Below, piece after piece: positions 961 to 21,696 of a DNA stretch of 64,000 bases. The translations under genes were made by a program, and so were the position numbers. The notes below the pieces were generated by a model. It saw only the letters and a program-made list of their open reading frames with translations, did no database searches and had not been told where the DNA came from. Source of the DNA: Kribbella antiqua. Its GTDB lineage: Bacteria; Actinomycetota; Actinomycetes; Propionibacteriales; Kribbellaceae. Location: contig NZ_SLWR01000009.1 of the NCBI RefSeq assembly GCF_004345665.1, positions 1-64,000 on the forward strand, read 5' to 3'. Position 1 is the first letter of the stretch. Each line of letters begins with the position of its first letter.

Positions 961-1253
961 CTTCGCAACGAACGTGGAACTGCAAAAACTGCAACCACCG
1001 CCGACCCTAGCACGCTCAGCACACCAACAACCACCCGTCGCCACGCCGTACGTCGTACTCATCCGGCGTCCCCGACCAAAAAGCCGAGCACCCAGACCGG
1101 CCGCATTCGCACGCAAACGGGTACGGCGGTAGCTCCGCCAGCCCGATGTCCGCCTGCCCTCCCGCCATCCTCTCAAGAACGGGCGGACCTCTCAGGAAAT
1201 GGGCGAGCGCTTGCCGGGGATGTGATCTTGACCGCATTCGGGCTCCCGCCTAC

Positions 1254-1268
1254 TGTATGCGGTATACC
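1254..1268. promoter_or_regulatory. Putative regulon operator, site 1
   Basis: TGTATGC-G-GTATACC, a 7-1-7 pseudo-palindrome 26 bases upstream of the reductase start at 1295. It matches sites at 10864, 10949 and 13204. The AC/GC-N-GT core resembles operators of FCD-type GntR regulators, and such a regulator is encoded at 20546-21298. Confidence 0.55.
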
Positions 1269-1294
1269 AAGCCCCTCCGGAAGGTGGGACGACC

Positions 1295-2329
1295 ATGAGA
1301 GTTGCTGTTCTTGGCGCCGGCGCGATCGGTGCCTATGTCGGCGCGGCGCTGCATCGCGGCGGGACCGAGGTTCATCTGATCGCGCGAGGTGCTCACCTGG
1401 AGGCGATCCGCGAGTACGGCGTGCGGGTGCTCAGTCCGCGCGGCGACTTCGATGCCCGGACGCCGGCCACCGACGACCCGGCCGAGGTCGGGCCGGTCGA
1501 CTATGTCTTCCTCGGGCTGAAGGCCAACTCCTATGCGAGTGCCGGCCCGCTGCTCGAGCCGTTGCTGCACGACGGCACGGTGGTCGTGGCGGCACAGAAC
1601 GGGATCCCGTGGTGGTACTTCCACGGTCTGAAGGGCCCGTACGACGGTCGCCGGATCGAGTCGGTCGACCCCGACGGCTCGGTCACCCGGGTACTGGCGC
1701 TCGACCGTGCCATCGGGTGCGTCGTGTACTGCTCGACCGAGCTCGAAGGGCCGGGCGTCGTACGGCATTTGGAAGGCACCCGGTTCTCAATCGGCGAGCC
1801 GGCCGGCGGGGTGTCCGAGCGCTGTGTGGCCTTCAGCGAGGCGATGGTCGCGGGCGGGCTGAAGTGCCCGGTCGAAGAGGACATCCGCAAGGACATCTGG
1901 ATCAAGCTGCTCGGCAACGCGGCGTTCAACCCGATCAGCGCGCTGGCCCGGGCGACGATGGTGGAGATCGCCAAGCACCAGGGCACCAGGGCGATGATCC
2001 GGCTGATGATGGAGGAGACGCTGGAGATCGCCGCCGCGGTCGGCTGCCACCCGGACATCTCGGTGGACAAGCGCATCAACGGCGCCGAACGCGTCGGCGA
2101 GCACAAGACCTCGATGCTGCAGGACCTGGAGAAGGACAAGCCACTCGAACTCGACGTCATCCTCGCCGCGGTGGTCGAGCTAGCCGATCTGACCGGCACC
2201 CCCGCACCGACCCTCCGCGCGGTCCACGCGGTAGCCGATCTCCTCGCCACCAAGGTCGGCATGGCGCACGCCCCGACCTCAGCCCCGGCGCCGACCCGAG
2301 CCCAAGCCTCGACACCGGCCTCTACCTGA
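1295..2329 (+). CDS. Ketopantoate reductase (ApbA/PanE) family 2-oxoacid reductase
   Basis: A 344-residue NADP-dependent reductase of the ApbA/PanE family. The N-terminal Rossmann motif GAGAIGAYVG begins at residue 7. The C-terminal helical domain carries the family Lys/Asn block WIKLLGNAAFNPISAL, where the Lys is the general acid and the Asn residues bind substrate. The ATG at 1295 follows GGAAGGTGG. Family members reduce 2-ketopantoate or other 2-oxoacids to 2-hydroxyacids. No pantothenate genes are nearby. The promoter instead carries the operator shared with the CoA-metabolism genes at 9.7-20.5 kb, so a role in 2-hydroxyacid metabolism is inferred. The C-terminal tail is Pro/Ala-rich. Confidence 0.85.
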   Translation: MRVAVLGAGAIGAYVGAALHRGGTEVHLIARGAHLEAIREYGVRVLSPRGDFDARTPATDDPAEVGPVDYVFLGLKANSYASAGPLLEPLLHDGTVVVAAQNGIPWWYFHGLKGPYDGRRIESVDPDGSVTRVLALDRAIGCVVYCSTELEGPGVVRHLEGTRFSIGEPAGGVSERCVAFSEAMVAGGLKCPVEEDIRKDIWIKLLGNAAFNPISALARATMVEIAKHQGTRAMIRLMMEETLEIAAAVGCHPDISVDKRINGAERVGEHKTSMLQDLEKDKPLELDVILAAVVELADLTGTPAPTLRAVHAVADLLATKVGMAHAPTSAPAPTRAQASTPAST

Positions 2330-2331
2330 GC

Positions 2332-2368
2332 CAGGTGGGTCCGGCCACAGCGACGCCGGACCCACCTG
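2332..2368. terminator. Terminator between reductase and beta-galactosidase
   Basis: A perfect 14-bp stem (CAGGTGGGTCCGGC / GCCGGACCCACCTG) with a 9-base loop, directly after the stop at 2329 and before the convergent GH35 gene. Confidence 0.8.
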
Positions 2369-2379
2369 TTCCACCTCCT

Positions 2380-2430
2380 GCCACTGAAGCCACCGTGCGC
2401 TACTTCGGTGCCGCCACTGAAGCCACCGTG
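2380..2430. repeat. 18-bp direct repeat
   Basis: GCCACTGAAGCCACCGTG occurs at 2380-2397 and again at 2413-2430, inside the convergent intergenic region. No function is apparent; a small slippage duplication is likely. Confidence 0.7.
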
Positions 2431-2449
2431 TGGCTCCGGAGGGCGGGGG

Positions 2450-4204
2450 TTAGAGCTCGAGGGGGCCGAGGGACAGGGCCGAGACGAAGTGCGCCGCTGG
2501 TTCTGCCATTACGTCCAGTTCCAGTACGACGAGTTCGTTGCGGCCGGGGCGTAGGACCGGGCCCGGGATGTAGAGCGTCTCCTGGGGGCCGCGGCGCCAG
2601 TAGCGGCCGAGGCAGAAGCCGTTGACCCAGGCGATCCCCTTGCCCCAGGCAACGGTCGACAAGAAGTGATCTACCGGCGAGGACACGTCGAAGCCGGCGC
2701 GCCAGGCAGTCGGCCCGACGCCGGGGGCATCCTGCGCCGGACCGCCGCCGTCCAAGGAAGTCCACAGCTCGGGTACGCCGTCGAGGTCGATCACCCGCGC
2801 CGACCAGCCGCGCAGCTCCTCAGACCCGAGCTGGACCGGACCGATCAGACCCTTGGGCTCACCGAGGCGCTGCCCGTAGTTGACCCGCCCCTGGTCCTCG
2901 ACGACGATCTCGAGCCGCCCACCGTGCGGAAGCATGAGCGCCCGGTCGTGCCGCTCGCGATCGAGCACACCGAGCGGAGCGCCGTCCAGGAACACGTACG
3001 CACGGTCCCGCACCTCATCAACGCTCAACAACGTCGGCCCGTCGACATCAACGGAAGTCTGGAAGAGCGCCAGGCGCGCGTCCAGGTCGTCGAGTGTCGG
3101 CATCGAAGCGTGCTCGCTGACGGCACCCCAGGCCGAAGGATCCGCGAGGAGCCGGATCGGCGAGCCGAGCGCCGCGGAAGTCTCCGGCGCGGCCGTCCCC
3201 GACGCCGGGACCACGTCGGGGACAGGCGCGTACCGGGAGATCACCTCCCGGAAGGCGTGGAACTTCGCCGTCGGGTTCCCCGCCTCGTCCAAGGGGGCGT
3301 CATAGTCGTACGACGTGATCGTCGGCCGGTACACGCCCTTGTCGTTGGCCCCGCTCATCAGCCCGAAGTTCGTGCCGCCGTGGACCATGTAGATGTTGAC
3401 CGAGGCACCGGCCGCCAGCAGCGCATCCAACTCGGCCGCAGCCTCGGAAACCCCGGTCGTGTGGTGCGGTCCGCCCCAGTGGTCGAACCACCCGTCCCAG
3501 AACTCCATGCACATCAACGGCCCGGTCGGCTGGTGCTTCCGCAGCGTCGCCAGCCGCTCGTCAGCGCGCGATCCGAACGATCCGGTCCGCAGTACGCCGT
3601 CCAGGCCGCCGGCCGCCAGCATCGCGTCGACCGGCTGATCGACCGTCACCAGCGGAACGGTGGTCCCGGCATTGCGGATGATCTCGGCCACCGACTTCAG
3701 ATACGTCTGGTCGTCGCCGAAAGCGCCGTACTCGTTCTCTACCTGGACGAGCAGGACCGGTCCGCCCTGATCCACCTGCAGCGGCTGGACAATCCGCAGT
3801 ACGTTATCCAGGTACTCACGGACAGCGGTCATGAACTGTGGCTCGTAGCGGCGCACGCCCATCCCCGGCGTGCGGAACAGCCAGGCGGGCAGACCGCCGT
3901 TGTCCCATTCGGCGCAGATGTACGGCCCGGGGCGGACGATCGCGTACAGCCCGGCGTCGGCGATCTCCCGCAGGAACCGCTCGAGGTCGAGCATCCCGGA
4001 GGTGTCGAAGACGCCGGGAGCCGGGCTGTGCGCGTTCCACGGCACATAGGTCTCGATAGTGTTGAGGCCCATCAGCCGGGCCTTCTCGATCCGGTCGGCC
4101 CAGGTGTCCGGGTGCATCCGGAAGTAGTGCAGCGCGCCGGACAGAATCCGGAAAGGCTTTCCGTCGAGAAGGAAGTCTGACTCACCGATCGCGAACTCGG
4201 TCAT
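2450..4204 (-). CDS. Glycoside hydrolase family 35 beta-galactosidase
   Basis: A 584-residue GH35 enzyme that hydrolyses terminal beta-galactosides with retention. The TIM barrel occupies roughly residues 1-330. The acid/base Glu lies in VQVENEYGAFG and the nucleophile Glu in MCMEFWDGWFDHWGG. The GGTNFG block is also present, and the C-terminal part carries the jelly-roll domains. There is no signal peptide, so it should act in the cytoplasm on imported galactosides. The ATG at 4204 follows AAAGAG; the in-frame extension upstream overlaps the hairpin at 4235 and is not coding-like. It is the last gene of the operon that starts at 7497. Confidence 0.93.
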   Translation of the reverse strand: MTEFAIGESDFLLDGKPFRILSGALHYFRMHPDTWADRIEKARLMGLNTIETYVPWNAHSPAPGVFDTSGMLDLERFLREIADAGLYAIVRPGPYICAEWDNGGLPAWLFRTPGMGVRRYEPQFMTAVREYLDNVLRIVQPLQVDQGGPVLLVQVENEYGAFGDDQTYLKSVAEIIRNAGTTVPLVTVDQPVDAMLAAGGLDGVLRTGSFGSRADERLATLRKHQPTGPLMCMEFWDGWFDHWGGPHHTTGVSEAAAELDALLAAGASVNIYMVHGGTNFGLMSGANDKGVYRPTITSYDYDAPLDEAGNPTAKFHAFREVISRYAPVPDVVPASGTAAPETSAALGSPIRLLADPSAWGAVSEHASMPTLDDLDARLALFQTSVDVDGPTLLSVDEVRDRAYVFLDGAPLGVLDRERHDRALMLPHGGRLEIVVEDQGRVNYGQRLGEPKGLIGPVQLGSEELRGWSARVIDLDGVPELWTSLDGGGPAQDAPGVGPTAWRAGFDVSSPVDHFLSTVAWGKGIAWVNGFCLGRYWRRGPQETLYIPGPVLRPGRNELVVLELDVMAEPAAHFVSALSLGPLEL

Positions 4205-4234
4205 CTCACTCTTTTCAGCAAAGCAAGGGGATGA

Positions 4235-4262
4235 CAGCGGCCGGACCGGATTCCGGCCGCTG
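4235..4262 (-). terminator. Intra-operon hairpin between binding-protein and galactosidase genes
   Basis: A perfect 11-bp stem (CAGCGGCCGGA / TCCGGCCGCTG) lies just after the binding-protein stop at 4275. Such hairpins usually cut read-through or protect the 3' end of the binding-protein message, so the transporter lipoprotein is made in excess of the enzyme. There is no U tract. Confidence 0.6.
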
Positions 4263-4274
4263 CCAGCATGTGAA

Positions 4275-5630
4275 CTAGCCGTTGACCTGGAACCCCTGCT
4301 GGTTGCCGTAGGCAACCAGGGCGTCCTGCCAGGCCTTCAGGCCGGTGTTCAGGTCGGACTTGGACTGGTACGACTTGCCGACGGTGTCGCCGTAGATGCT
4401 GTTGGCGTACAGCTCGTACGGCAGGTAGCTCCAGCCCTTGACGACCGAGTCGGCCGCGCCGGTGAGCACCTGGTTGATCTTCTGACCGCCGAAGTACGTG
4501 CTCGCCTTGTCCACGAAAGCCGGGTCCTTCAGGTCCGCCGTGGTGGCCGGGAAGCCGCCGCTGGCGAGGAACGGCTTGACGCCCTCGTCGTGGTTCAGCC
4601 AGCGGACGAAGGCCGCGGCCAGCGCCGGGTTGGCGCTCTGCTTCAGGACGGACTCGGTGCTGCCGCCGTTCTCAGCCGTGGCCGGCTGACCGTCGTACGT
4701 CGGCATCGGGGCGACTGCCCACTTGCCTGCGCCGGCCTTTACCGACGACTCCATCACGCCCGGCATCCAGGCGCCGGTCGGCAGGGTGGCGATGGTGCCG
4801 TCGCCGAGGGCCTTGAACCACTCGTCGGTCCAGCCCGGGATCTGCGAGACCAGGCCGCCCTCGACCAGCTGGTTCCAGGTGCTGGTCCACTTCTTGGAGC
4901 CGTCGTCCTGCAGGTTGATGGTGACGTTCTTGCCGTCGGCCTTGAACGGCTGGCCACCGGCCTGCCAGATCATGCTGGTGGTGAAGCCGGCGTCACCGGA
5001 GTCGTTGGTGATGTAGGCCTTCGGGTTGGCCGCGTGCAGCTTCTTCGCCGCGGCGATGTACTCGTCCCAGGTCTTCGGCACGGCGATGCCGTACTTGTCG
5101 AAGACCTGCTTGTTGTAGAACAGCGCCATCGGGCCCGAGTCCTGCGGCAGGCCGTAGAGACCGTTGCCGGCGTGGACGGCCGCCCAGGTCGAGGCCGTGT
5201 ACGCCGACTCGTACTGGCTGAAGCCGTACTGGTTCAGGTCGACGAGCGAGCCGGGGAGTGCGAACTGGGGGAGCGCCTGGTACTCGATCTGGGCCACGTC
5301 CGGAGCGCCCGAGCCCGCCTTGATCGCGTTCTGCAGCTTGGTGTAGTGGTCGTTGCCCGTACCGGCGTTGACGAGGTTCACCTTGATGTTCGGGTACTGC
5401 GCCATGAACGCCTTCACCTGGGCCTCGGCAGACGGCGTCCAGGTCCAGTAAGTGATGGTGCCGCCCGCCTTGAGCGCGGCGTCGACGGCGTCGACGGAGC
5501 CGGTGGTCGCGCTGCCGCTGCTGCCACTGCCGGAGTTGTCCGAGCCGCCGCCACAGGCGGCCACGACCGCCAGCGCCGTGAGTGCGGCTCCGGCAACCAC
5601 CAGCTGCCGGATGCGCCGATTGAACTTCAT
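4275..5630 (-). CDS. ABC sugar transporter solute-binding lipoprotein
   Basis: A 451-residue family 1 extracellular solute-binding protein (MalE/UgpB type). It has a lipoprotein signal peptide: basic MKFNRRIR, a hydrophobic core, and lipobox VVAAC with Cys at about residue 24, followed by a Gly/Ser linker. The mature fold is typical of carbohydrate binders. The ATG at 5630 follows AAGGGAAC; an in-frame extension reaching 6368 runs inside the permease gene and is rejected. With the two permeases and the GH35 enzyme it should capture a galactoside outside the membrane. The ATPase (MsiK type) is not encoded here. Confidence 0.93.
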   Translation of the reverse strand: MKFNRRIRQLVVAGAALTALAVVAACGGGSDNSGSGSSGSATTGSVDAVDAALKAGGTITYWTWTPSAEAQVKAFMAQYPNIKVNLVNAGTGNDHYTKLQNAIKAGSGAPDVAQIEYQALPQFALPGSLVDLNQYGFSQYESAYTASTWAAVHAGNGLYGLPQDSGPMALFYNKQVFDKYGIAVPKTWDEYIAAAKKLHAANPKAYITNDSGDAGFTTSMIWQAGGQPFKADGKNVTINLQDDGSKKWTSTWNQLVEGGLVSQIPGWTDEWFKALGDGTIATLPTGAWMPGVMESSVKAGAGKWAVAPMPTYDGQPATAENGGSTESVLKQSANPALAAAFVRWLNHDEGVKPFLASGGFPATTADLKDPAFVDKASTYFGGQKINQVLTGAADSVVKGWSYLPYELYANSIYGDTVGKSYQSKSDLNTGLKAWQDALVAYGNQQGFQVNG

Positions 5631-5656
5631 TCTGTTCCCTTTCACTTGACCAAGAC

Positions 5657-6583
5657 CTATTTGACGGAGCCTGCGCTCAAACCCGACTGCCAGAACCGCT
5701 GGAGCAGGAGGAAGGCGACCACCAAGGGGACGATCGTCAGCAACGATCCGGTGATCACCAGGTTGTAGATGGGGTGGGCACCCACGCCGGTCGCCTGGTT
5801 GCTCCACTGGGTGAGCCCGACCGTGAGTGGGTAGAGATTCGGCTTGCTGAGCATGATCAGCGGGAGGAAGTAGTTGTTCCAGGTCGACACCACCGCGAAC
5901 AGCAGGGTGGTGACGATGCCGGGGGCAAGCAATCGCAGCGCGACGGTGAAGAAGATCCGGACCTCGCCGGCGCCGTCGATCCGGGCCGCCTCGAGCAGCT
6001 CCACCGGTACGGCGTCGGTCGCGTACACCCACATCAGGTACAACCCGAACGGGCTGACCAGCGACGGGATGATGATCGCCCACACCGTGTTGGTCAGGCC
6101 GAGGTTCGAGAACATCAGGAACGTCGGCACCGCCAGCGCGGTCCCCGGTACGGCGACCGCACCCAGGAGCACCGCGAACACGGCCCGGCGGCCGGCGAAG
6201 GCGTACTTGGCCAGGCCGTATCCGGCGGCGGTCGCGAGCAGCGTCGCACCGCCGGCGCCGACGACGACGTACAGCACGGTGTTGCCGAGCCAGCGCAGGA
6301 AGATGCCGTCGTTGTAGGTCAGCGTGTCCTTGATGTTGGTGAAGAACGCGAAGCTCTTGCCGAACCACAGCCCCGGGCTGGAGAGCAGATCGTTCTGCGT
6401 CTTGGTCGCGCTGATGAACAGCCAGAGCAGCGGAACCAGGGTGTAGATCAGGTAGAGGACCATCACTCCGGTCAGCAAAGGCGAACGCTTGGGCCGCAGT
6501 GGCGACGTACCCGTCTTCTTCTTGCGCGTAGTCGTCGTACTCGTGGCCGTCGCCGGGGTCAAGGTGGCGGTCGAGGTGCTCAT
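5657..6583 (-). CDS. ABC sugar transporter permease, MalG type
   Basis: A 308-residue inner-membrane permease with six expected transmembrane segments. The EAA loop is seen as ELLEAARIDGAGEVRIFFTV, the contact site for the ATPase. The N-terminus is a Thr-rich cytoplasmic tail. Its ATG at 6583 overlaps the TAA of the upstream permease by one base, indicating translational coupling. It forms the channel with the product of 6583-7497. Confidence 0.93.
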   Translation of the reverse strand: MSTSTATLTPATATSTTTTRKKKTGTSPLRPKRSPLLTGVMVLYLIYTLVPLLWLFISATKTQNDLLSSPGLWFGKSFAFFTNIKDTLTYNDGIFLRWLGNTVLYVVVGAGGATLLATAAGYGLAKYAFAGRRAVFAVLLGAVAVPGTALAVPTFLMFSNLGLTNTVWAIIIPSLVSPFGLYLMWVYATDAVPVELLEAARIDGAGEVRIFFTVALRLLAPGIVTTLLFAVVSTWNNYFLPLIMLSKPNLYPLTVGLTQWSNQATGVGAHPIYNLVITGSLLTIVPLVVAFLLLQRFWQSGLSAGSVK

Positions 6584-7497
6584 TACAATGCCTCCCGGGA
6601 TCCGCGCAGCTGGACGACGTACGCGATGATCGCGGTGATGATGCCCATCACGATCGCGATCGTGGCGGAGTAGTTGAACTGCTGCCCGGCGAAGGACAGG
6701 TTGTAGGCGTACATGTTGGGCGTGTAGTACGTGGTGATCACGTTCGGCGCCAGCGTGCGCAGGATGTTCGGCTCGTTGAAGAGCTGGAAGCTGCCGATGA
6801 TCGAGAAGATCGTCGCGATCACGATCGCGCCGCGCAGCGCCGGCAGCTTCACCGCCCGGATGGTCCGGAACGTCCCGGCGCCGTCGATCGCGGCCGCCTC
6901 GTACAGCTCACCGGGGACCGTCCGCAGCGCCGAGTAGAAGATCAGCATGTTGTAGCCGACGAACTCCCAGGTGACGATGTTGGCGATCGACGGCAGCATC
7001 CAGTGGCTGCTCAGCGGCTGGATGGCCGTCGTACCGAACAGGTCGTTGAGGTCAGCGGCCAGGCCGAAGTTGTTGCCGTAGATGTAGCCCCACATCAGCA
7101 CCGCCACCACGCCGGGTACGGCGTACGGCAGGAAGATCACGATCCGGAAGAAGCCCGCGGCGTGCAGCCGCAGGCTGTCGATCGCCAGCGCCGCCAGCAG
7201 GGCGAGGATCAGCATGATCGGGACCTGGACGATCAGGAACACCAGCACCCGGCCGAACGCGTCCCAGAACTTCGAGTCCTGGATCGCCTCGACGTAGTTG
7301 TCCAGGCCGACGAACACGTTGCCGCCGAAGAACGCCTGCTCGCGGAACAGGCTCAGATAGATCGCGTACCCGATCGGGGCCAGGAACGTGAGCGCGAACA
7401 CGGCCAGGAACGGACCGACGAACACCCACCCTTTGGCGTCCTTGTGTACTCTGCGCTTTCGGGCGGTGACCCGCCCTGCCGCAACGGACTCCGCCAT
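6583..7497 (-). CDS. ABC sugar transporter permease, MalF type
   Basis: A 304-residue permease of the binding-protein-dependent transport family with the EAA loop ELYEAAAIDGAGTFRTIRAV. It is the first gene of the galactoside operon. The ATG at 7497 follows GGAGG-like sequence. Two LacI-type operators lie in the 132 bases between it and the divergent regulator, so LacI repression of this operon is the simplest reading. Confidence 0.92.
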   Translation of the reverse strand: MAESVAAGRVTARKRRVHKDAKGWVFVGPFLAVFALTFLAPIGYAIYLSLFREQAFFGGNVFVGLDNYVEAIQDSKFWDAFGRVLVFLIVQVPIMLILALLAALAIDSLRLHAAGFFRIVIFLPYAVPGVVAVLMWGYIYGNNFGLAADLNDLFGTTAIQPLSSHWMLPSIANIVTWEFVGYNMLIFYSALRTVPGELYEAAAIDGAGTFRTIRAVKLPALRGAIVIATIFSIIGSFQLFNEPNILRTLAPNVITTYYTPNMYAYNLSFAGQQFNYSATIAIVMGIITAIIAYVVQLRGSREAL

Positions 7498-7544
7498 GCG
7501 TCCGTCGACCTCCTTCTCGCTGTCCCGCGCCGCCCGACGCGCCC

Positions 7545-7562
7545 GATGTTGACGTCAACATC
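7545..7562. promoter_or_regulatory. LacI-family operator 1
   Basis: A perfect 18-bp palindrome, GATGTTGACGTCAACATC, 48 bases upstream of the permease start. The centred CG with TTGAC/GTCAA arms is typical of LacI-family sites. Confidence 0.8.
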
Positions 7563-7580
7563 GTCGGCGAGACGCTAGCG

Positions 7581-7594
7581 TGTTTACGTCAACA
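7581..7594. promoter_or_regulatory. LacI-family operator 2
   Basis: TGTTTACGTCAACA has one mismatch from the core of operator 1 and lies about three helical turns away, upstream of the lacI-type gene. The pair suggests both autoregulation and loop-assisted repression of the divergent operon. Confidence 0.75.
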
Positions 7595-7629
7595 TGTCTA
7601 CAGTGTGGGCACAAGCGAGGAGGGTGCCG

Positions 7630-8676
7630 ATGTCAGCGGAGGAGCCGCCGGTACGGCGACGGCGCGGCCCGTCGATGGCCGATGTCGCCCGGCTGGCCGG
7701 GGTGTCCGGGCAGACGGTTTCACGGGTGGCGAACGAGCGGCACAACGTCGACTCGGCCACCCGGGACCGGGTGCAGGCAGCCATGCGTGAGCTCGGCTAC
7801 CGGCCGAACAGTGCCGCCCGGGCGCTGCGTAACGGGGAGTTCCGCAGCATCGGCGTGATCGTCTTCGAGCTGTCCAGCTTCGGTACGACGCGGACCCTCG
7901 ACGCCGTCGCCGCGGCAGCCACCATCAGCGGCTACACGATCAACCTGCTGCCCGTGCTGGACGTGAACCAGCGCGCGGTGACGAACGCCTTCAGCCGCCT
8001 GGGGGAGCAGGCGGTTGACGGCGTGATCATCCTGATCGAGGCGCACACGCTGGACGAAGCCGGCGTACAGCTGCCCGAAGGGTTGCCGGTCGTCGTGGTC
8101 GACTCCAGCGCTCATTACGACTACCCGATCGTCGACAGCAACCAGGCCCAGGGTGCGCGCCTGGCGACTGAGCACCTGCTGGATCTCGGCCACGAGACGG
8201 TCTGGCACGTCAGTGGCCCGCCGACGTCGTTCGCGGCGGACCGGCGCAAGCGGTCCTGGGAGCTGACCCTGAAGCAGCGCGGTCGTGAGGTACCGCCGGT
8301 TCTCGACGGTGACTGGACGCCGAGCTCCGGGTACGAAGCCGGCCGGAAGCTGGCAGCAAACCCTGACGTGACCGCCGTGTTCGCCGCCAACGACCAGATG
8401 GCGCTCGGCGTCCTCCGCGCGCTGCACGAGCGAGGTCGCGTCGTGCCGGATGACGTGAGCGTGGTGGGCTTCGACGACATGGAGGAGTCTGCGCACTTCT
8501 GGCCGCCGCTGACCACGATCCTGCAGAACTTCGTGGATGTCGGCCGGCTCAGCGTCGACGCGCTCATCCACGAGATCCAAGCCGGTGAACACCACCACGA
8601 CCCAGTCGCCGTACCGACCAAACTCGTCGTCCGCAGCAGCACCGCCCCACCCTCACCGCGCCGACCCACCATTTGA
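7630..8676 (+). CDS. LacI-family transcriptional regulator of the galactoside operon
   Basis: A 348-residue LacI/GalR repressor. The N-terminal helix-turn-helix is MADVARLAGVSGQTVSRVAN at about residues 16-35, and the hinge is GYRPNSAARAL. A periplasmic-binding-protein-like effector domain follows. I chose the ATG at 7630 because of GAGGAGG eight bases before it; the earlier in-frame ATG at 7594 lies inside operator 2. It is divergent from the sugar transporter operon and probably releases DNA on binding a galactoside. Confidence 0.92.
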   Translation: MSAEEPPVRRRRGPSMADVARLAGVSGQTVSRVANERHNVDSATRDRVQAAMRELGYRPNSAARALRNGEFRSIGVIVFELSSFGTTRTLDAVAAAATISGYTINLLPVLDVNQRAVTNAFSRLGEQAVDGVIILIEAHTLDEAGVQLPEGLPVVVVDSSAHYDYPIVDSNQAQGARLATEHLLDLGHETVWHVSGPPTSFAADRRKRSWELTLKQRGREVPPVLDGDWTPSSGYEAGRKLAANPDVTAVFAANDQMALGVLRALHERGRVVPDDVSVVGFDDMEESAHFWPPLTTILQNFVDVGRLSVDALIHEIQAGEHHHDPVAVPTKLVVRSSTAPPSPRRPTI

Positions 8677-8705
8677 CTGGTCGACCCACCACCATTTGAC
8701 TGGTC
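8663..8705. repeat. Tandem duplication over the lacI-type stop codon
   Basis: GACCCACC then ATTTGACTGGTC occurs at 8663-8682 and again at 8683-8705, the second copy with three extra bases (ACC). The first copy contains the regulator's TGA stop. This looks like a recent slippage event at the gene's 3' end. Confidence 0.75.
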
Positions 8706-8716
8706 ACCGTTTCAAA

Positions 8717-8756
8717 TTGTGGGTTCCCCGCCCGTATGCCGACGGGGAACCCACAA
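8717..8756. terminator. Bidirectional terminator between LacI and sucD genes
   Basis: A perfect 14-bp stem (TTGTGGGTTCCCCG / CGGGGAACCCACAA) with a 12-base loop, between the convergent genes ending at 8676 and 8774. Confidence 0.82.
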
Positions 8757-8773
8757 CGTCGTGGGCGGACCCA

Positions 8774-9661
8774 TCAAACGGCGAGGGCCAGGGCGTGGCG
8801 CATCATGGTGGCGGTTTCGGTCGGTGTCTTGCCGACGCGGACACCGGCGGCTTCGAGGGCCTCCTGCTTCGCGGCCGCCGTACCGGACGAGCCGGACACG
8901 ATCGCGCCCGCGTGACCCATCGTCTTGCCCTCCGGCGCGGTGAAGCCGGCCACGTAACCGACGACCGGCTTGGTCACGTTCTCCTTGATGAACGCGGCCG
9001 CCCGCTCCTCGGCGTCACCACCGATCTCACCGATCATCACGATCGCGTCGGTGTCCGGGTCGTCCTGGAACGCCTGCAGCGCGTCGATGTGCGTCGTACC
9101 GATGATCGGGTCGCCGCCGATACCGATCGCGGTGGAGAAGCCGAAGTCGCGCAGTTCGTACATCATCTGGTAGGTCAGCGTGCCCGACTTGCTGACCAGC
9201 CCGATCCGCCCAGGCCCCGCGATGTCCGCGGGAATGATGCCGGCGTTGGCTCGTCCTGGGCTGATGATGCCTGGGCAGTTCGGGCCGATGATCCGGGTGG
9301 TGCCGGAAGCCTGCGCGGCGGCGAAGAACGCGGCGGTGTCGTGCACCGGCACGCCCTCGGTGATCACGACCACCAGCGGGATCCCGGCGTCGACGGCCTC
9401 GATCACCGCGCCCTTGGTGAAGCGTGGCGGCACGAAGATCACCGACACGTCGGCACTCGTCGACTTCACCGCGTCGGCGCAGGAGCCGTAGACGGGGATC
9501 GACCGCTTTGCGAAGTCGACCGACTGGCCGCCCTTGCCCGGAGTCACGCCGCCGACGATATTGGTGCCTGCGGCAAGCATCCGGCTGGTGTGCTTGGTGC
9601 CTTCCGAGCCGGTCATGCCCTGCACGACGACCCGGCTCTGCTCGGTCAGGAAGATCGCCAT
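8774..9661 (-). CDS. sucD: Succinyl-CoA synthetase alpha-type subunit (second SucCD-type CoA ligase)
   Basis: A 295-residue SucD homologue of normal length. The CoA-binding Rossmann part is at residues 1-120. The phospho-histidine is in KTMGHAGA (His250). The nucleotide-relay motif SKSGTLTYQ is at about 158-166. With the beta subunit upstream (13-base gap) it should couple NTP to acyl-CoA formation via phospho-His. The promoter carries the operator shared with the formyl-CoA transferase operon. It may therefore be an inducible paralog acting on succinate or on another carboxylate, not necessarily the TCA-cycle enzyme; this is inference. Confidence 0.9.
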
Positions 9662-9674
9662 CTGTCGACCCCTC

Positions 9675-10826
9675 TCAGTTCTGTGCGGCGAGTTGGGCGG
9701 CCCGGGCGGCGGCGCCGTCCATGGTGTCGACCACGGTCACCAGCGGGTGGTTGGCCTGGGCAAGGATCCGGCGGCCTTCGTCGACGTTGTTGCCGTCCAG
9801 CCGGACCACCAAGGGTTTGTCGGCCTGGTCGCCCAGCAACGCGAGCGCCTGCACGATCCCGTTGGAGACCGCGTCGCAGGCCGTGATCCCGCCGAACACA
9901 TTCACGAAGACACTGCGCACCTGCGTGTCGCCGAGGATGATGCCCAAGCCGTTCGCCATCACCTCGGCGGAGGCGCCACCGCCGATGTCGAGGAAGTTCG
10001 CCGGCTTCACGCCGTACGGCTCACCGGCGTACGCGACGACGTCGAGGGTCGACATCACCAGCCCGGCGCCGTTGCCGATGATCCCGACCGAGCCGTCGAG
10101 CTTGACGTAGTTGAGGCCCTTCTCCTGTGCTGCCGCCTCGAGCGGATCCGCGGCCGCCTTGTCCTCGAACCCGGCGTGGTCGGCATGCCGGTACGACGCG
10201 TTCTCGTCCAGCGTCACCTTGCCGTCGAGAGCCTCCAGCGAGCCGTCCGCCAGTTTGACCAGCGGGTTCACCTCGACGAGCGAGGCGTCCTCGCTGATGA
10301 AGACGTCGTACAGCCTCCGTACGACGTCCTCGGCGCCGGCCGGAAAGCCAACAGCCGCGACGATCTCGGCGGCCTTCGCTTCGTCGACGCCGACGGCCGG
10401 GTCGATCGGGATCTTGGCGATCGCGTCCGGGTTCGTGTGCGCGACCTCCTCGATCTCGACGCCGCCTTCGGTGCTGGCGATGCAGAGGTAGCTGCGCTGC
10501 GCGCGGTCGATCAGGTAGGAGAAGTAGTACTCCTCGGCGATGTCGGCGGCCAGTGCGAGCAGCACGCGGTGGACGGTGTGGCCCTTGATGTCCATGCCGA
10601 GGATCTCGAACGCCTTGCCCACTGCGTCCTCGGGGGAGGTTGCCAGCTTGACCCCGCCGGCCTTGCCGCGGCCGCCGGTCTTCACCTGTGCCTTGACCAC
10701 GACGCGACCGCCCAGCTCGGCGGCGGCCAACTCGGCATCGGCCGGGTCTTCGATCACCCGGCCGAGCGTCACCGGGACGCCGTACCGGGCGAAGAGTTCT
10801 TTGGCTTGGTACTCCATCAGATCCAC
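9675..10826 (-). CDS. sucC: Succinyl-CoA synthetase beta-type subunit (second SucCD-type CoA ligase)
   Basis: A 383-residue SucC homologue with an N-terminal ATP-grasp fold ([18 protein letters not shown] at about 43-60) and the C-terminal CoA-ligase domain ([20 protein letters not shown]). The GTG at 10826 follows GGGAGG. It forms the alpha2beta2 or alpha-beta ligase with the product of 8774-9661. An operator-like site at 10864-10878 lies 38 bases upstream. Substrate specificity cannot be read from the sequence. Confidence 0.9.
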
Positions 10827-10863
10827 GGAAGCCTCCCGGTCAGGATCGCTGTCTCATGGCGAC

Positions 10864-10878
10864 TGTATGCTGTATGCA
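10864..10878. promoter_or_regulatory. Putative regulon operator, site 2
   Basis: TGTATGC-T-GTATGCA, one mismatch per arm pair from a perfect 7-1-7 palindrome, 38 bases upstream of sucC. Its right half is identical to those at 10957-10963 and 13212-13218. Confidence 0.6.
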
Positions 10879-10948
10879 CATCGCGTCACAAGGCCTGATC
10901 CGCAACACCCCAGGTCTGGACAGCCGCCGGACGGTGGAGTACCAAAGG

Positions 10949-10963
10949 TCCATACGGTATGCA
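10949..10963. promoter_or_regulatory. Putative regulon operator, site 3
   Basis: TCCATAC-G-GTATGCA, 17 bases before the MFS transporter start at 10981, partly overlapping its leader. It shares CCATACGGTATGCA with the site at 13204-13218, 2.2 kb away. Confidence 0.62.
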
Positions 10964-10980
10964 GTAGTCAGGAGGCGACG

Positions 10981-12357
10981 ATGAACCACGCGACTCCACC
11001 GCCCCGGGACGTGCGTGACGTCTACGGCCGGCAGTACCGCATCGGTGAGGATGCGAGGGATCTGACCGGACACTCCCGGCGCTGGCAACTGTGGGCGACC
11101 TGGGCGTGCATGGTCGCGATCAGCCCACTGCAGTACTCCTTCGGCTCGGCCGCCATCGGTTTGCAGAACGGACGTGGCTGGGATGTCGTCGCGACCATGT
11201 GGCTGCTCGCTGTCTTCATCGCCTGCCAAGCCCTCATCGCGATCCCGGCCGCCTGGATCCAGCGAGTACGCCGGGCCACGCCGACCCAGCTGGTCGTCGC
11301 CGGTGGACTGCTCGCGGTGATCGGCATGGTGACGCTCGCCCACGCCGACAGCTATCCGCTCGTGCTCGTCGGCTACGCCGTGATCGGTGGAGCCGGCGCT
11401 GGTCTGGTGTACGCCGCCTGCATCACCACGGCCGCGCGCTGGTTCCCGGATCGGCGCACCGCCACGATCGGCTTTGTCACCGGCGGCTTCGCCGTTGGCG
11501 CGGTGCCGAGCATCGCATTGTTGACAATCATCCAGTCAGCAAATGGACAGCGGCTCGTGTTCGACCTCACCGCGGTCGTCGCCGTTGTCGTCGTACTGAC
11601 TGCTGGGGGACTGCTGAAGGATCCGCCGCGGCATTGGTGGCCGGCGGAGCTCGATGCGCAGGCATGGGCGATCGACCGGAAGCTGAACCGGAGCATCCCG
11701 CACAACGCGCCCGCGGTCCGGCACTACCGGCCGGCCGAGGCGATGCGCACCGGCGCGCTGCCGTTGATGTGGCTGACTCTGGCGTTGAGTACGGCGTTGT
11801 CGTTGTTCGGCATCGCGTTCGTCGTGAGCTATGCCGTCACCGCGGAGCTGGGGGTCGCGGTGGCCGGCTTCGCTGCCGGAATGCTTGCCGCGGTCAACGG
11901 TCTTGGCCGGTCGTTCGCCGGGCATCTGTCGGATCGGTTCGGCCGGCGTCGGGTGCTGGCCGCCGTACTGATGATCGAGGGGTTCACCCACGTCGGCCTC
12001 GTCGTCGCCGGTGAGGCGGGTGCGGGCTGGGCGTTCGTGGTGTGCGCGATGTTCGCCGGACTCGGCGGCGGCGCGTTCTACGCGATCATGGCGAACCTGG
12101 TGCTCGAGTTCTTCGGCGAGAACAGCCTGCTGCAGAACCAGGCGATCCTGTACTCCGCGAAGGCCGTCGGCGGACTGGTCGGCGTCGGCGTGGCTGGATC
12201 CTTGGTTGCGACGGTGGGTTATCGACCGTTGTTCCTCGGCGCCGGCCTGCTCGGCGTACTGACTGCTTTGACTGTGCGGTTCCTGAAACAGCCTGGACGA
12301 CCTGCGCTGCCGGTTCGGCCTCAGTTGGGTACGCCGGTCGCGGGGTCGGGCGAGTGA
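10981..12357 (+). CDS. MFS transporter, oxalate/formate antiporter (OFA) type
   Basis: A 458-residue major facilitator protein with twelve predicted transmembrane segments. It has an OFA-like central loop (KDPPRHWWPAE) and the MFS loop DRFGRRR after TM8. It is probably a plasma-membrane carrier for oxalate, formate or another small carboxylate. The ATG at 10981 has an excellent AGGAGG; the frame upstream belongs to the promoter. The operator at 10949 and the formyl-CoA transferase downstream support an organic-acid role. A specific substrate is inference, since OFA members also carry other monocarboxylates. The stop overlaps the next gene by four bases. Confidence 0.82.
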   Translation: MNHATPPPRDVRDVYGRQYRIGEDARDLTGHSRRWQLWATWACMVAISPLQYSFGSAAIGLQNGRGWDVVATMWLLAVFIACQALIAIPAAWIQRVRRATPTQLVVAGGLLAVIGMVTLAHADSYPLVLVGYAVIGGAGAGLVYAACITTAARWFPDRRTATIGFVTGGFAVGAVPSIALLTIIQSANGQRLVFDLTAVVAVVVVLTAGGLLKDPPRHWWPAELDAQAWAIDRKLNRSIPHNAPAVRHYRPAEAMRTGALPLMWLTLALSTALSLFGIAFVVSYAVTAELGVAVAGFAAGMLAAVNGLGRSFAGHLSDRFGRRRVLAAVLMIEGFTHVGLVVAGEAGAGWAFVVCAMFAGLGGGAFYAIMANLVLEFFGENSLLQNQAILYSAKAVGGLVGVGVAGSLVATVGYRPLFLGAGLLGVLTALTVRFLKQPGRPALPVRPQLGTPVAGSGE

Positions 12358-12932
12358 GCGGCTACGGAAAGGTCGCCAGGCCGGATCCGTGTGTGATGGA
12401 GCTGGTGTCGAAGCTGGCCCGGGAACCATGGACGGATCGCCCGACCTGCGTGCATCCCACGCTGAGTGCGGTGGCAAGGGCTGTTCACGATCACAGCACG
12501 TCTGCCGGTCGCCGGGCGCTGCTGCCGTTGGCATCGAGCTTCATCGGCACCGCGCAGCCCGGCTTCGAACCGTCCGCCCGCGTGGTCGCGCTGTGTGTGT
12601 CTACGGCGCTGGCCGGTGGCGAGATGACCAAGGATGAACGGATCAGGCTCGCGAAGGCACATCAGACCGCGATCCACTTACTGGATGGGCGCGGGGAGCC
12701 GGCGGGACCGGCACGGTTCTGGCTTCCTGTGCTCGGCCGGTTCGGGTGGAGTGAGCCGTTCTACCGGACGTTCGTCGCGACCGAACACGCCGCGGAAGCC
12801 GTCGCGGTCACTGCTCGAGTTTCGAACGGTGACCGCGACGTACGTCTGAGGCAACTGTTGAAGCAGTGCCTTCACAGTGCCCGGCGGCCCAGGCCTTCGT
12901 GTTCGGCGTCGGCCCAGAAGCTTTCGTCGTAG
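12354..12932 (+). CDS. Hypothetical protein coupled to the MFS transporter
   Basis: A 192-residue protein of no family I recognise. The GTG at 12354 overlaps the transporter's TGA (GTGA), so translation is coupled. It is largely alpha-helical by composition, with no signal peptide or membrane segment. The C-terminal 20 residues are Ser/Arg/Pro-rich and overlap the opposite-strand gene at 12872-13141, so the true end could be affected by a compositional artefact. A cytosolic partner of the transporter is possible but unsupported. Confidence 0.6.
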   Translation: MSGYGKVARPDPCVMELVSKLAREPWTDRPTCVHPTLSAVARAVHDHSTSAGRRALLPLASSFIGTAQPGFEPSARVVALCVSTALAGGEMTKDERIRLAKAHQTAIHLLDGRGEPAGPARFWLPVLGRFGWSEPFYRTFVATEHAAEAVAVTARVSNGDRDVRLRQLLKQCLHSARRPRPSCSASAQKLSS

Positions 12933-13141
12933 TCGCCGTCCGGGATCGCCACCAGCTCGTGCCGCCGGGACGGGCGGAGCTGACCTTCGAGCCGGCGAAG
13001 GTCCGTCCGGCACCGGTCGAGGTCGTCCAGCAGACGCAGTACGTCGAGATGCGCGCCGAGCTGATTCCTCAACGCCACAAGGGATTTCTCCAGCGCCTGC
13101 AGGGCTTGGCGGGTTCGGTGGAGTTCATCGTGAATCGTCAT
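12872..13141 (-). CDS. Small coiled-coil hypothetical protein
   Basis: An 89-residue acidic/basic helical protein. Residues 4-55 show leucine/hydrophobic heptads (ALEKSLVALRNQL, VLRLLDDLDRC), suggesting a coiled coil. The ATG at 13141 follows CAGGAG with a six-base spacer, which is strong support for a real gene. It overlaps the end of the opposite-strand gene by 61 bases. It is divergent from the lyase operon, so the operator at 13204 lies between the two starts. Function unknown. Confidence 0.65.
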   Translation of the reverse strand: MTIHDELHRTRQALQALEKSLVALRNQLGAHLDVLRLLDDLDRCRTDLRRLEGQLRPSRRHELVAIPDGDYDESFWADAEHEGLGRRAL

Positions 13142-13203
13142 CGCAGCTCCTGAAGCGTCGAGCTCTGGACAACCGTGGGGGCGTGCGATAAGACTACGAC
13201 TAC

Positions 13204-13218
13204 ACCATACGGTATGCA
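13204..13218. promoter_or_regulatory. Putative regulon operator, site 4
   Basis: ACCATAC-G-GTATGCA between the divergent starts at 13141 and 13286. CCATACGGTATGCA is identical to site 3. It is placed to control the lyase/formyl-CoA transferase operon and possibly the small coiled-coil gene. Confidence 0.62.
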
Positions 13219-13285
13219 ATCTACATTCACGGCGCTTTCATAGATCTGGGGCGCACGACGGCCCCTCCTGAGGAGATGACTGCAG

Positions 13286-14995
13286 ATGGCCCAGACAGTG
13301 TCGGAGACCCACCCAGTCGCAGAGGTCAACGAGCCGGCGACCATCTCAGGTGGTCACTTAGTGGCCAAGGCCCTCAAGGCCGAAGGCATCGACGTGATCT
13401 TCACCCTCTGCGGTGGCCACATCATCGACATCTACGACGGCTGTGTCGACGAGGGCATCGCGGTGGTTGACGTACGGCACGAGCAGGTCGCGGCGCACGC
13501 GGCCGACGGGTACGCACGGGTGACCGGCAAGCCCGGCTGCGCCGTCGTCACCGCCGGCCCTGGTACGACGGACGCAGTCACCGGGGTCGCGAACGCGTTC
13601 CGGGCCGAGAGCCCGATGCTGCTGATCGGCGGCCAGGGCGCGCTGAACCAGCACAAGATGGGGTCCCTGCAGGACCTGCCGCACGTCGACATGATGACGC
13701 CGATCACCAAGTTCGCCGCGACCGTGCCACACACGGCTCGAGTCGCCGACATGGTGTCGATGGCGTTCCGGGAATGCTTCAACGGCGCCCCCGGCCCGTC
13801 CTTTCTGGAGATCCCGCGCGACAGCCTGGACAACTCGGTCCCGGTCGACCAGGCGACCGTCCCGGAGGCCGGCCGGTACCGCGCCTCCACCAAGAGCATC
13901 GGCGACCCGGCGAGCATCGAGGCGCTGGCCGATCTGCTGGTCCGGGCCGAGAAGCCGGTCGTGCTGCTCGGCAGCCAGGTCTGGACCTCCCGCGGCTCGG
14001 ACGCTGCTGTCGAATTCGCCCGGCAGTTGGACATTCCGGCGTACATGAACGGCGCGGCGCGCGGGACGCTGCCGCCCGGCGACCCGCACCACTTCCACCT
14101 GTCCCGGCGATACGCGTTCAACAACGCCGATCTGATCCTGATCGTCGGCACGCCGTTCGACTTCCGGATGGGCTACGGCCGCCGGCTGCCGAAGTCCGCG
14201 ACCGTGGTCCAGATCGACCTCGACTACCGCACTGTCGGCAAGAACCGTGACATCGACCTCGGCCTGGTCGGTGACCCGGGCGCGATCCTGGCCGCGGTCA
14301 CTCAAGCGGCGTCGGGCCGGCTGCGGAAGGCGGATCGCAAGGCCTGGTTCGCGGAGCTCCATGCCGAGGAGGACGCGTCGTACCAGAAGCGGCTGCCGCG
14401 GCAGCTGTCGGACGCGAACCCGATCCACCCGCTCCGGCTCGCGCACGAGATCAACGAGTTCCTGACCGAGGACTCGATCTACATCGGCGACGGCGGCGAC
14501 ATCGTCACCTTCTCCGGCGGCGTGGTCCAGCCGAAGTCGCCCGGCCACTGGATGGACCCGGGCCCGCTCGGCACGCTCGGCGTCGGTATTCCGTTCGTAC
14601 TCGCGGCCAAGTACGCGCAGCCGGAGAAGGAAGTGGTCACGCTCTTCGGCGACGGCGCCTTCTCGCTGACCGGCTGGGACTTCGAGACCCTGGTCCGCTT
14701 CAACCTCCCGTTCGTCGGGGTGGTCGGCAACAACTCCTCGATGAACCAGATCCGCTACGGCCAGGAGGCGAAGTACGGCCAGTCCCGCGGCCGCATCGGC
14801 AACACCCTCGGCGATGTCAGGTACGACGAGTTCGCGCGGATGCTCGGCGGATACGGCGAGGAGGTCCGCGACCCCAAGGACATCGGGCCGGCCCTGCAGC
14901 GCGCTCGCGAGTCGGGACTGCCGTCGCTGATCAACGTGTGGGTCGATCCCGACGCGTACGCCCCCGGAACCATGAACCAGACCATGTACAAGTAG
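13286..14995 (+). CDS. ThDP-dependent 2-hydroxyacyl-CoA lyase / oxalyl-CoA decarboxylase-like enzyme
   Basis: A 569-residue ThDP enzyme of the acetolactate synthase superfamily. The N-terminal PYR domain has the cofactor-activating Glu66 in RHEQ. A central domain follows, then the C-terminal PP domain with GDG at 455-457 and the NN that closes the ThDP motif about 27 residues later. The block [11 protein letters not shown] (125-135) resembles the MGAFQEFPQVE region of human-type 2-hydroxyacyl-CoA lyase. The YEEMDQ block of Oxalobacter oxalyl-CoA decarboxylase, with its Tyr-Glu pair, is missing. The C-terminus ends GTMNQTMYK. Expected reaction: cleavage or decarboxylation giving formyl-CoA. 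It is followed after 10 bases by formyl-CoA transferase. Acetolactate synthase is unlikely given this context. ATG 13286 follows GAGGAG. Confidence 0.8.
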
Positions 14996-15005: not shown

Positions 15006-16238
15006 ATGTCTTCTCAGAGGGCCCTCGAAGGTGTCCGCGTACTCGACATGACCCATGTGCAGTCCGGACCGTCCTGCACGCAGATCCTGGCGTGGCTCGG
15101 TGCGGACGTGATCAAGCTCGAAGCACCCACCGGTGACATCACCCGGCAGCAGCTGCGCGACCTGCCGGACGCCGACAGCCTGTACTTCACCATGCTGAAC
15201 TGCAACAAGCGCAGCATCACGCTGAACCTGAAGTCCGACCGCGGCAAGGAGATCTTCACCGACCTGGTGAAGGACGCCGACATCCTGGTGGAGAACTTCG
15301 CCCCCGGCGCGATCGACCGGATGGGCTTCACCTGGGAGCGGCTGCAGTTGCTCAACCCACGGCTGATCTTCGCCTCGATCAAGGGCTTCGGTCCCGGCCG
15401 GTACGAGAACTTCAAGGCCTACGAGGTGGTCGCCCAGGCGATGGGCGGCGCCATGAGTACGACGGGATTCGAGGACGGCCCGCCGACCGCGACCGGCGCG
15501 CAGATCGGTGACTCCGGCACCGGCATCCACCTGGTCGCCGGCATCCTGGCCGCACTCTTCCAGCGGACGCACACCGGCAAGGGCCAGCGAGTCACTGTGG
15601 CGATGCAGGAGGCTGTGCTCAACCTGACCCGGGTGAAGCTGCGTGATCAGCAACGGCTCACGCATGGACCACTCCGCGAGTACCCGAACGAGCACTTCGG
15701 CGACGAGGTGCCGCGGTCCGGCAACGCCTCCGGCGGCGGTCAGCCCGGCTGGGCGCTGCGGTGCGCACCGGGGGGACCGAACGACTACATCTACGTGATC
15801 GTGCAGCCGCCCGGCTGGGCTCCGATCGCTCAGTTGATCGGCCGGCCAGAGCTGGCCGAGGACCCGGACTGGGCGACGCCGGCGGCGCGGCTGGACAAGC
15901 TGGACAAGATGTTCGCGCTGATCGAGCAGTGGACCGAGCAGCACACCAAGTTCGAGGTGATGGACAAGCTCAACGCGCTGAACGTGCCGTGCGGGCCGAT
16001 CATGTCCACCCGCGAGCTGATCGAGGACGAGACGCTGGCCGACCTCGGTGCGGTGGTCGAGGTCAAGCATCCGCAGCGCGGCAGCTTCAAGACGGTCGGC
16101 TGCCCGATCAAGCTGTCCGACTCCCCGGTCCAGGTCGAGACCTCGCCGGGTCTCGGTGAGCACAACTCCGTCATCTACGGCTCGCTCGGCATCGACACCG
16201 CCGAACTCGAGGAACTCAAAGCCGCCGGCGTCATCTGA
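15006..16238 (+). CDS. frc: Formyl-CoA:oxalate CoA-transferase (class III)
   Basis: A 410-residue class III CoA-transferase that closely follows Oxalobacter Frc as I remember it. Shared blocks are [11 protein letters not shown] near the N-terminus, [14 protein letters not shown] (58-71), [17 protein letters not shown] (95-111), [11 protein letters not shown] and the C-terminal [12 protein letters not shown]. The catalytic aspartate that forms the acyl anhydride is Asp169 in [10 protein letters not shown], the same number as in Oxalobacter Frc. It moves CoA from formyl-CoA to oxalate or a related acid, which closes the cycle with the upstream lyase. The ATG follows AGGAGG at the end of the lyase gene. 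Specificity for oxalate is likely but not proven. Confidence 0.9.
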
Positions 16239-21626: not shown

Positions 21627-21696
21627 TTCAACCAGGCGTACTCACCGGTTATGGCCCATCTCACGTGATCCCGGTTACGTCCGGGCGTGATCCCCG

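Follow-up and report, generated by a model that had tools for sequence, protein, structure and literature searches.

An FCD-type GntR regulator and hexamer-array operators define a candidate oxalate-utilisation regulon in Kribbella antiqua and other Actinomycetes

In a 64,000-nucleotide stretch of Kribbella antiqua DNA (hereafter the window; G+C content 67.7%), four short related sites lie upstream of a panE-like reductase gene (site 1), the sucCD-like genes of a succinate-CoA ligase (site 2), the gene of a major facilitator superfamily (MFS) carrier (site 3) and an operon beginning with the gene of a thiamine diphosphate (ThDP)-dependent lyase (site 4). Judging from the sequence comparisons described below, these sites very probably serve as operators through which the FCD-type GntR regulator encoded at 20546-21298 represses an oxalate-utilisation regulon. 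The initial annotation of the window had assigned the four promoters to one regulon and had proposed the GntR as its reader, and both claims have passed the comparative tests described below. What emerges is a candidate regulon that is new and well defined and whose regulator comes from a known family. It provides a testable hypothesis with a named protein and named DNA sites in many genera, and it would group with oxalate use several genes of uncertain function: those of the panE-like reductase, the sucCD-like ligase, the unusual ThDP lyase, an Nramp-family transporter and, away from the cluster, TerC.

Hexamer arrays in the four promoters

The four 15-base sequences first reported are present letter for letter at 1254-1268, 10864-10878, 10949-10963 and 13204-13218. 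Their distances to the start codons, given earlier as 17-68 bases, were measured as 26, 46, 17 and 67 bases for sites 1-4, and sites 3 and 4 are indeed identical at 14 bases. The expectation that such sites are rare by chance is also borne out: pairs of GTATGC/GCATAC hexamers with one base between them, a single mismatch being allowed, occur six times in the window (1248, 1255, 10865, 10950, 13205 and 51618), whereas 300 first-order Markov simulations averaged 0.11 such pairs and never gave more than 3. Five of the six pairs fall in the promoter regions of the four units, the pair at 51618 lying outside them. The whole 8.1 Mb genome contains two exact matches of CATACNGTATGCA, which are sites 3 and 4, and two of GTATRCNGTATRC, which are sites 1 and 2.

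The operator was initially described as a shared palindrome, TGCATAC-N-GTATGCA. This description holds for sites 3 and 4, which are imperfect inverted repeats, but not for site 2, a direct repeat, or for site 1, an array of three hexamers. A fixed palindrome was rejected as too narrow, since sites 1 and 2 consist of direct repeats and hexamers follow one another at 7-base steps. The operator unit is a GTANNC hexamer in either orientation, repeated mostly at 7-base steps, and the palindrome is one case of such an array. The register was examined in distinct upstream regions from genera other than Kribbella by fixing an anchor hexamer and counting the offsets at which other GTANNC hexamers, read on both strands, fall. 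On average, each offset had 2.80 counts on the register versus 0.03 off it for panE (32 regions), 3.50 versus 0.06 for gntR (35 regions), 2.80 versus 0.47 for the lyase gene (50 regions) and 1.40 versus 0.45 for sucC (40 regions). With Kribbella loci included, the departures from the register before the lyase gene and sucC come chiefly from one promoter class in which hexamers are 13 and 20 bases apart. The regular hexamer spacing expected of array operators like that of NanR is seen in all four promoter types.

The arrays recur in the upstream regions of other Kribbella. The set comprised 36 sequences (35 fetched loci and the window) and, after regions shorter than 60 bases had been dropped, contained 29 lyase, 29 MFS, 29 sucC, 9 panE, 36 gntR and 31 lysR regions; for the counts of the panE promoter, the long arrays and CATACGGTATGCAGTAGTC, regions shorter than 100 bases were dropped. 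Every lyase region contains CATACGGTATGCA, and 28/29 show the long pattern of four hexamers seen at site 4. Of the MFS regions, 28/29 have CATACGGTATGCA and 26/29 have CATACGGTATGCAGTAGTC, the core of the site 3 array. The direct repeat GCATAC.GCATAC was found in 24/29 sucC regions and GTATGC.GTATAC in 6/9 panE regions; the predicted promoter TTGACC-N17-TACTGT, which site 1 overlaps, likewise recurs in 6/9 panE regions.

Distribution of the motif in Kribbella and other genera

The lyase gene is present in 33 of the 38 Kribbella genomes and missing in G002, G013, G017, G030 and G037. Across these 38 genomes CATACNGTATGCA has 65 exact matches: two in each of 32 genomes, one in G022 and none in the five without the lyase gene. 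By comparison with the lyase coordinates, all 65 are at this cluster, either directly before the lyase gene or no more than about 7 kb further upstream. A genome-wide scatter of the motif, which the initial annotation had named as a result that would speak against a regulon, is therefore not seen. In the gntR-centred loci of relatives, the run of genes from sucCD to the Nramp gene is found in the same order in 28/35; the other seven have a short stretch, a larger spacing or no cluster.

In other genera, the motif was counted in the best 80 of 591 loci of lyase relatives, in all of which the lyase is at least 80% identical; eight of the 80 are from Kribbella, and the set spans Streptomyces, Amycolatopsis, Kibdelosporangium, Actinoplanes, Pseudonocardia and others. 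Among named relatives, those nearest to the lyase of the window are Kribbella entries. A common C-terminal end of 10 residues was seen in six aligned lyases. When two hexamers with at most two mismatches in all were sought within 350 bases upstream of a gene, the motif was found before 77/80 lyase, 38/39 panE, 59/62 sucC, 25/44 gntR and 15/61 MFS genes of these best 80 loci, several of the counted promoters being common to divergent genes. The background in the same loci was 109 unassigned matches in 1.57 Mb. A weight matrix was built from 18 distinct non-Kribbella lyase sites and was thus independent of the four sites first reported. When it was run over the window, sites 3 and 4 were the best two places, and sites 1 and 2 together with position 51616 completed the best five, the match at site 1 being displaced by one hexamer.

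The regulon is larger than the four units, because in relatives the motif is also found before a molybdopterin oxidoreductase gene (L105 and L121) and a gene whose product is a TIM barrel protein resembling xylose isomerase (L102, as well as G004 and L230 of Kribbella). Our guess is that the first encodes a formate dehydrogenase and the second a hydroxypyruvate isomerase; if both guesses are true, these genes would be the expected next steps of oxalate use.

Looser forms of the motif occur at terC, a gene of different function, which is probably a member of the regulon too. In many Kribbella GTATRCNGTATRC stands before this TerC-family gene (Pfam TerC), which lies about 170-280 kb from gntR or the lyase gene where they share a contig; in the genome of the window the site reads GTATCC-G-GTATAC (C9 near 224 kb, L245). 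The terC site is present in 21 of the 22 GntR-bearing genomes examined, 16 of which had been chosen by their GTATRCNGTATRC match, and in neither of two genomes without GntR. The genomes not chosen by the pattern were that of the window and seven of eight picked ones, the eighth (G007) giving just paralogues of 56-58% identity; among them, the site with one mismatch is present in 5/6 with GntR and in 0/2 without it. The genomes G002, G017 and G030, which have GntR and no oxalate cluster, keep the terC site (G030 with one change). In G013 and G037, which lack GntR, the terC gene and its conserved leader are present and the site is absent. The terC leader itself is long and strongly conserved (GTGGAGGGGAGTATTCC ... 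GTCGTCATCACGG ... GGTGCTG ... AGAGACCTCCGG; L217 1643-1860 and other loci), and from its sequence it looks like a manganese riboswitch; an Rfam search gave no match at the gathering score in three loci, nor at E<=5 in L217 1550-1900. A second TerC-family gene, 58% identical to the first, is located near gntR in two genomes (G003:C1:3941832 and G007:C9:97172) and again ties the region to metal transport.

The presence of the motif at terC, which is not a known oxalate gene, and the overlap of site 1 with a -10 hexamer could be taken to mean that the motif is a promoter element or the site of a global regulator and not a pathway-specific operator. We regard this as very improbable: exact matches of CATACNGTATGCA are confined to these promoters, at two per lyase-bearing genome (one in G022), the matrix from other genera picks out the four sites, and the set of genes behind the motif is similar across genera.

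The GntR and LysR regulators

Two regulators encoded next to the cluster come into question as readers of the arrays. The GntR protein belongs to the FCD (FadR) subfamily, with an N-terminal GntR winged helix and a C-terminal FCD domain; alignment of the starts places its first codon at ATG 21298 and not at TTG 21382. The initial annotation had called it the obvious reader. It is the better supported of the two, by its co-occurrence with the cluster in other genera and by the 7-base register of gntR promoters, but it was not obvious from Kribbella alone. Within the genus, GntR is present in 36/38 genomes, including all 33 that bear the lyase gene, and is missing only in G013 and G037, both of which are without the cluster. 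In other genera, its relatives (257-284 bits) were found in 10/10 genomes with the cluster, including Streptomyces in which gntR is not adjacent. When the Acrocarpospora phusangensis GntR was compared with the genome of the window, the window GntR was the best match (58% identity, 275.8 bits) and the next GntR protein reached 109 bits. Of 45 aligned GntR proteins, 44 share the sequence SRQP[VI]REALQ in their DNA-binding domain; the exception, L145, reads garbled at this place.

The LysR-type regulator was favoured at first, because the Kribbella gntR promoter has a different palindrome and because LysR tracks the lyase gene within the genus. According to this alternative, the GTATGC sites belong to LysR as an activator of the genes, and GntR reads just its own GTAGACNGTCTAC palindrome. 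LysR is indeed found in the same 33/38 Kribbella genomes as the lyase gene (G031 has just a 64% relative, at a large distance from the cluster), its promoter contains TGTATACAG in 28/31 loci, in several of them with GTATGC nearby, and the gntR site of Kribbella, which looks different from the GTATGC sites, is found once in the genome of the window. However, LysR (E<=1e-50) was detected in only 7/16 other-genus genomes with the cluster, and in 4/10 of those in which GntR is present in 10/10; the search cut-offs differ, the one for GntR being E<=1e-25 with all counted relatives at 1e-75 or better. In Kibdelosporangium and Lentzea loci (L098-L100 and L145), lysR follows panE behind the motif and appears as a regulon member. 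Moreover, the lysR promoter has GTATAC at a distance of 15 bases from GTATGC, not 7 or 14, and none of five lysR upstream regions exceeds the matrix null, though most of these are not promoters. The usual activation sites of LysR proteins are also unlike sites placed over -10/+1. LysR as the general reader was dropped on the comparison of 4/10 with 10/10 genomes, and we now consider it improbable; GntR is preferred since its relatives accompany other-genus clusters in which LysR was not found. Of the loci just mentioned, L099 comes from a record titled Rhodococcus rhodnii; its gene order and motif positions are near-identical to those of Kibdelosporangium L098 and L100, and the organism label may be wrong.

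A division of labour in Kribbella, with the hexamer arrays serving repression by GntR and some of the units or a downstream branch being activated by LysR, is possible, though we do not favour it. It would agree with the co-occurrence of LysR and the lyase gene in Kribbella and with the position of lysR behind the motif after panE in L098-L100 and L145, but no second conserved element of the LysR-tetramer type has been defined in the four promoters, no systematic search for one having been made. The element TGTATACATNNA, which has three places in the genome and occurs in the window at 21619-21630 before a small open reading frame (ORF) of 49 residues (21549-21400, minus strand) and at 22668-22679 before lysR, is possibly LysR's own site.

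In Kribbella, the gntR promoter palindrome TTGGTAGACNGTCTACCAA looks unlike the GTATGC sites; GTAGACTGTCTAC is found in 35/36 gntR upstream regions, and the full palindrome has one place in the genome of the window within three mismatches. In other genera, the gntR promoters contain GTATGC-T-GTAGGC-A-GTCGAC (Prauserella, Acrocarpospora and others), GTAGAC-T-GTAGAC (most Streptomyces read) or GCATAC-N8-GTATCC (Amycolatopsis). Of 35 distinct gntR upstream regions from outside Kribbella, 31 have another GTANNC/GNNTAC hexamer at a distance of 7 or 14 bases from the anchor, and none shows a step of 4-6 or 8-11 bases. This 7-base register bridges the GTAGAC-T-GTCTAC of Kribbella to GTATGC. Upstream of gntR, 81-122 bases before the gene, Crp-like sites (GTGA-N6/7-TCAC) were noticed in 15 of 42 loci from the lyase set described above, none of them from Kribbella (L101, L103, L105, L107, L112, L116, L121, L122 and L124 are among the 15), and a Crp-like TGTGACCGACATCACA stands before lysR at 22728-22743 of the window; these sites may hint at carbon-source control.

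The mechanism that we propose from these data is as follows. The operator would consist of two to four hexamers, each in either orientation and set 7 bases from the next, with GTATGC as the best hexamer and GTATAC, GTAGTC and GTAGAC as weaker ones, located on the -10 element and transcription start or between the promoter and the start codon. GntR dimers on the array would block RNA polymerase. Oxalate or its product (oxalyl-CoA, glyoxylate or formate) would fill the FCD pocket and release GntR, leading to joint expression of the carrier, the lyase-frc-CoA ligase-Nramp operon, the sucCD-like ligase and the panE-like reductase, and GntR would limit its own synthesis via the hexamer pair in its own promoter. 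Binding by GntR, repression, the effector and the stoichiometry are all proposed from sequence. The geometry of the sites suggests repression, because site 1 covers the -10 element and start of the predicted TTGACC-N17-TACTGT promoter and the remaining sites are 17-67 bases away from the start codons that follow them. An N-x3-H, H, H pattern is conserved in the FCD domain and suggests a bound metal ion, and an ion of this kind would suit an effector that is a small carboxylate, for instance oxalate.

Several points weigh against this proposal. GTATGC/GCATAC is found in 0/36 Kribbella gntR upstream regions, and the link between GntR and the GTATGC sites in Kribbella therefore relies on relatives and on the shared architecture. 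The gntR regions are weak when judged by the lyase-derived matrix, 7/35 scoring above the 99th percentile of random windows and 25/35 above the 95th, and some of the seven are shared panE-gntR promoters. The sequences behind the conservation counts are related and not independent. At terC, the site is absent from G033 even though GntR is present, and its absence from G013 and G037 may be the result of a single loss event, since the leaders of these two genomes are nearly the same.

A further point against it concerns the pathway: oxalate as the substrate of the lyase is deduced, because the enzyme fails both the curated models of oxalyl-CoA decarboxylase (Oxc) and the signature residues of that enzyme. 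A plain Oxc assignment was not supported, the scores being 228.8 bits with TIGR03254 (cut-off 739.4) and 250 with NF006721 (cut-off 557), and the lyase reaches no curated equivalog cut-off among the families compared, including 2-hydroxyacyl-CoA lyase. The signature residues of Oxc are given as Y120, E121, S553 and R555 in PMC10192776. In the alignment with E. coli Oxc, the lyase is without equivalents of Y120/E121 and S553/R555, the YE pair and the tail being different.

Pathway genes, known systems and additional sites

Soil contains abundant oxalate of plant and fungal origin, which actinobacteria, among other organisms, consume. Oxalate use is the likely pathway served by the regulon (genes in Table 1). 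The frc product meets the curated oxalate_frc model and has 229 residues identical to those of E. coli Frc. The MFS carrier scores 170 bits with the SfMCT model (cut-off 320) and 139.4 bits with TIGR00890 (cut-off 374.85). In Methylobacterium, panE2 is an oxalyl-CoA reductase, and we guess, on the basis of its regulon membership, that the panE-like reductase has the same activity. The Nramp gene is downstream of the CoA ligase gene, probably in the same operon. Oxalate use by Kribbella is cited from Robertson and Meyers 2022 in PMC10192776.

Table 1. Positions of the sites, regulators and cluster genes in the window
Feature	Positions	Strand	Description
Predicted reductase promoter	1228..1256	+	-35 TTGACC 1228-1233, 17-base spacer, -10 TACTGT 1251-1256
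Site 1	1248..1267	+	GCCTAC-T-GTATGC-G-GTATAC upstream of panE-like reductase; overlaps predicted -10 and transcription start
panE-like reductase	1295..2329	+	2-dehydropantoate 2-reductase family; NF005089 448.2 bits (cut-off 223); Pfam ApbA
sucD-like succinate-CoA ligase alpha	8774..9661	-	NF004230 437.8 bits (cut-off 336)
sucC-like succinate-CoA ligase beta	9675..10817	-	NF001913 503.4 bits (cut-off 370)
Site 2	10864..10878	-	Direct repeat GTATGC-T-GTATGC upstream of sucCD
Site 3	10950..10969	+	CCATAC-G-GTATGC-A-GTAGTC upstream of MFS carrier; 11 bases between end and ATG
MFS carrier, oxalate/formate antiporter-like	10981..12357	+	Below curated cut-offs
Site 4	13198..13224	+	Four-hexamer array GACTAC-A-CCATAC-G-GTATGC-A-ATCTAC upstream of lyase operon
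ThDP-dependent lyase	13286..14995	+	Related to 2-hydroxyacyl-CoA lyase and oxalyl-CoA decarboxylase; presumed substrate oxalyl-CoA
frc, formyl-CoA transferase	15006..16238	+	TIGR03253 663.2 bits (cut-off 504.2)
ADP-forming acyl-CoA ligase	16259..18403	+	In the lyase operon
Nramp-family divalent metal transporter	18497..19996	+	NF037982 466.6 bits (cut-off 50)
FCD-type GntR regulator	20546..21298	-	Proposed reader; Pfam GntR 64.2 (cut-off 27), FCD 97.7 (cut-off 24.3)
Presumed gntR autoregulatory site	21327..21345	-	TTGGTAGAC-T-GTCTACCAA; hexamers GTAGAC/GTCTAC, 7 apart
LysR-type regulator	21697..22641	-	Rival reader or co-regulator; promoter holds TGTATACAG at 22667-22675

The gene set resembles the oxc-frc systems of Oxalobacter, E. 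coli and Methylobacterium in having frc, a carrier related to the oxalate/formate antiporter and a panE-family reductase. It differs from them in that the lyase is not a canonical Oxc, in the additional ADP-forming ligase, sucCD-like ligase and Nramp transporter, and in the proposed control by GntR. By title and abstract, no GntR or LysR control of actinobacterial oxalate genes was found in the literature, which is weak evidence of absence as most subscription journals lay outside the search; the oxalate papers checked by word contain neither 'GntR' nor 'regulator'.

LldR, GlcC, PdhR and PhnR have the FCD GntR domain architecture and exert pathway-linked control of organic-acid use. The window GntR shares this architecture, its top model being PhnR_burk (94.5 bits, cut-off 271.5). 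The usual operator form of such regulators is TNGTNNNACNA, unlike the GTANNC arrays described here, and no oxalate role of regulators of the LldR/GlcC/PdhR/PhnR type was found in the literature searched. Another parallel is offered by NanR of the E. coli sialic acid regulon, an FCD-type GntR repressor of a small scattered catabolic regulon whose operator is likewise a repeated hexamer (GGTATA in NanR, GTATGC here) downstream of the polymerase site. Three NanR dimers bind (GGTATA)3 cooperatively, and the operator is placed downstream of the polymerase site (PMC8012715). The pathway is a different one, and the hexamers of the present arrays are 7 bases apart and in both orientations; the window GntR is not NanR proper, reaching 92.1 bits with the NanR model (cut-off 260).

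The observations can be joined into a broader picture, which as a whole we hold to be rather unlikely. A single GntR would govern a regulon across many Actinomycetes through an orientation-free GTANNC code read every 7 bases, with two to four words per promoter, one dimer per word, and the number and quality of the words setting the strength of control. The regulon would be tied to metal balance via the Nramp importer and via terC about 200 kb away, whose operator would track GntR and not the oxalate genes, and the lyase would be a new non-canonical oxalyl-CoA decarboxylase. On the practical side, GntR paired with its hexamer might serve as an oxalate-responsive switch.

A few additional sites were noticed. 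The window has GCATTC-G-GTATGC at 51618-51630, with one mismatch to the operator core, 46 bases upstream of a GNAT-family ORF at 51677. In the genome of the window, places with one mismatch are 51619, which is before this GNAT-family ORF, C2:621538 and C14:160566. A similar double hexamer is located upstream of an aldehyde dehydrogenase gene in two Kribbella, at C2:621538 of the genome of the window (L003) and at G029:C1:7724326 (L236), and it is possible that this gene is a further member of the regulon.

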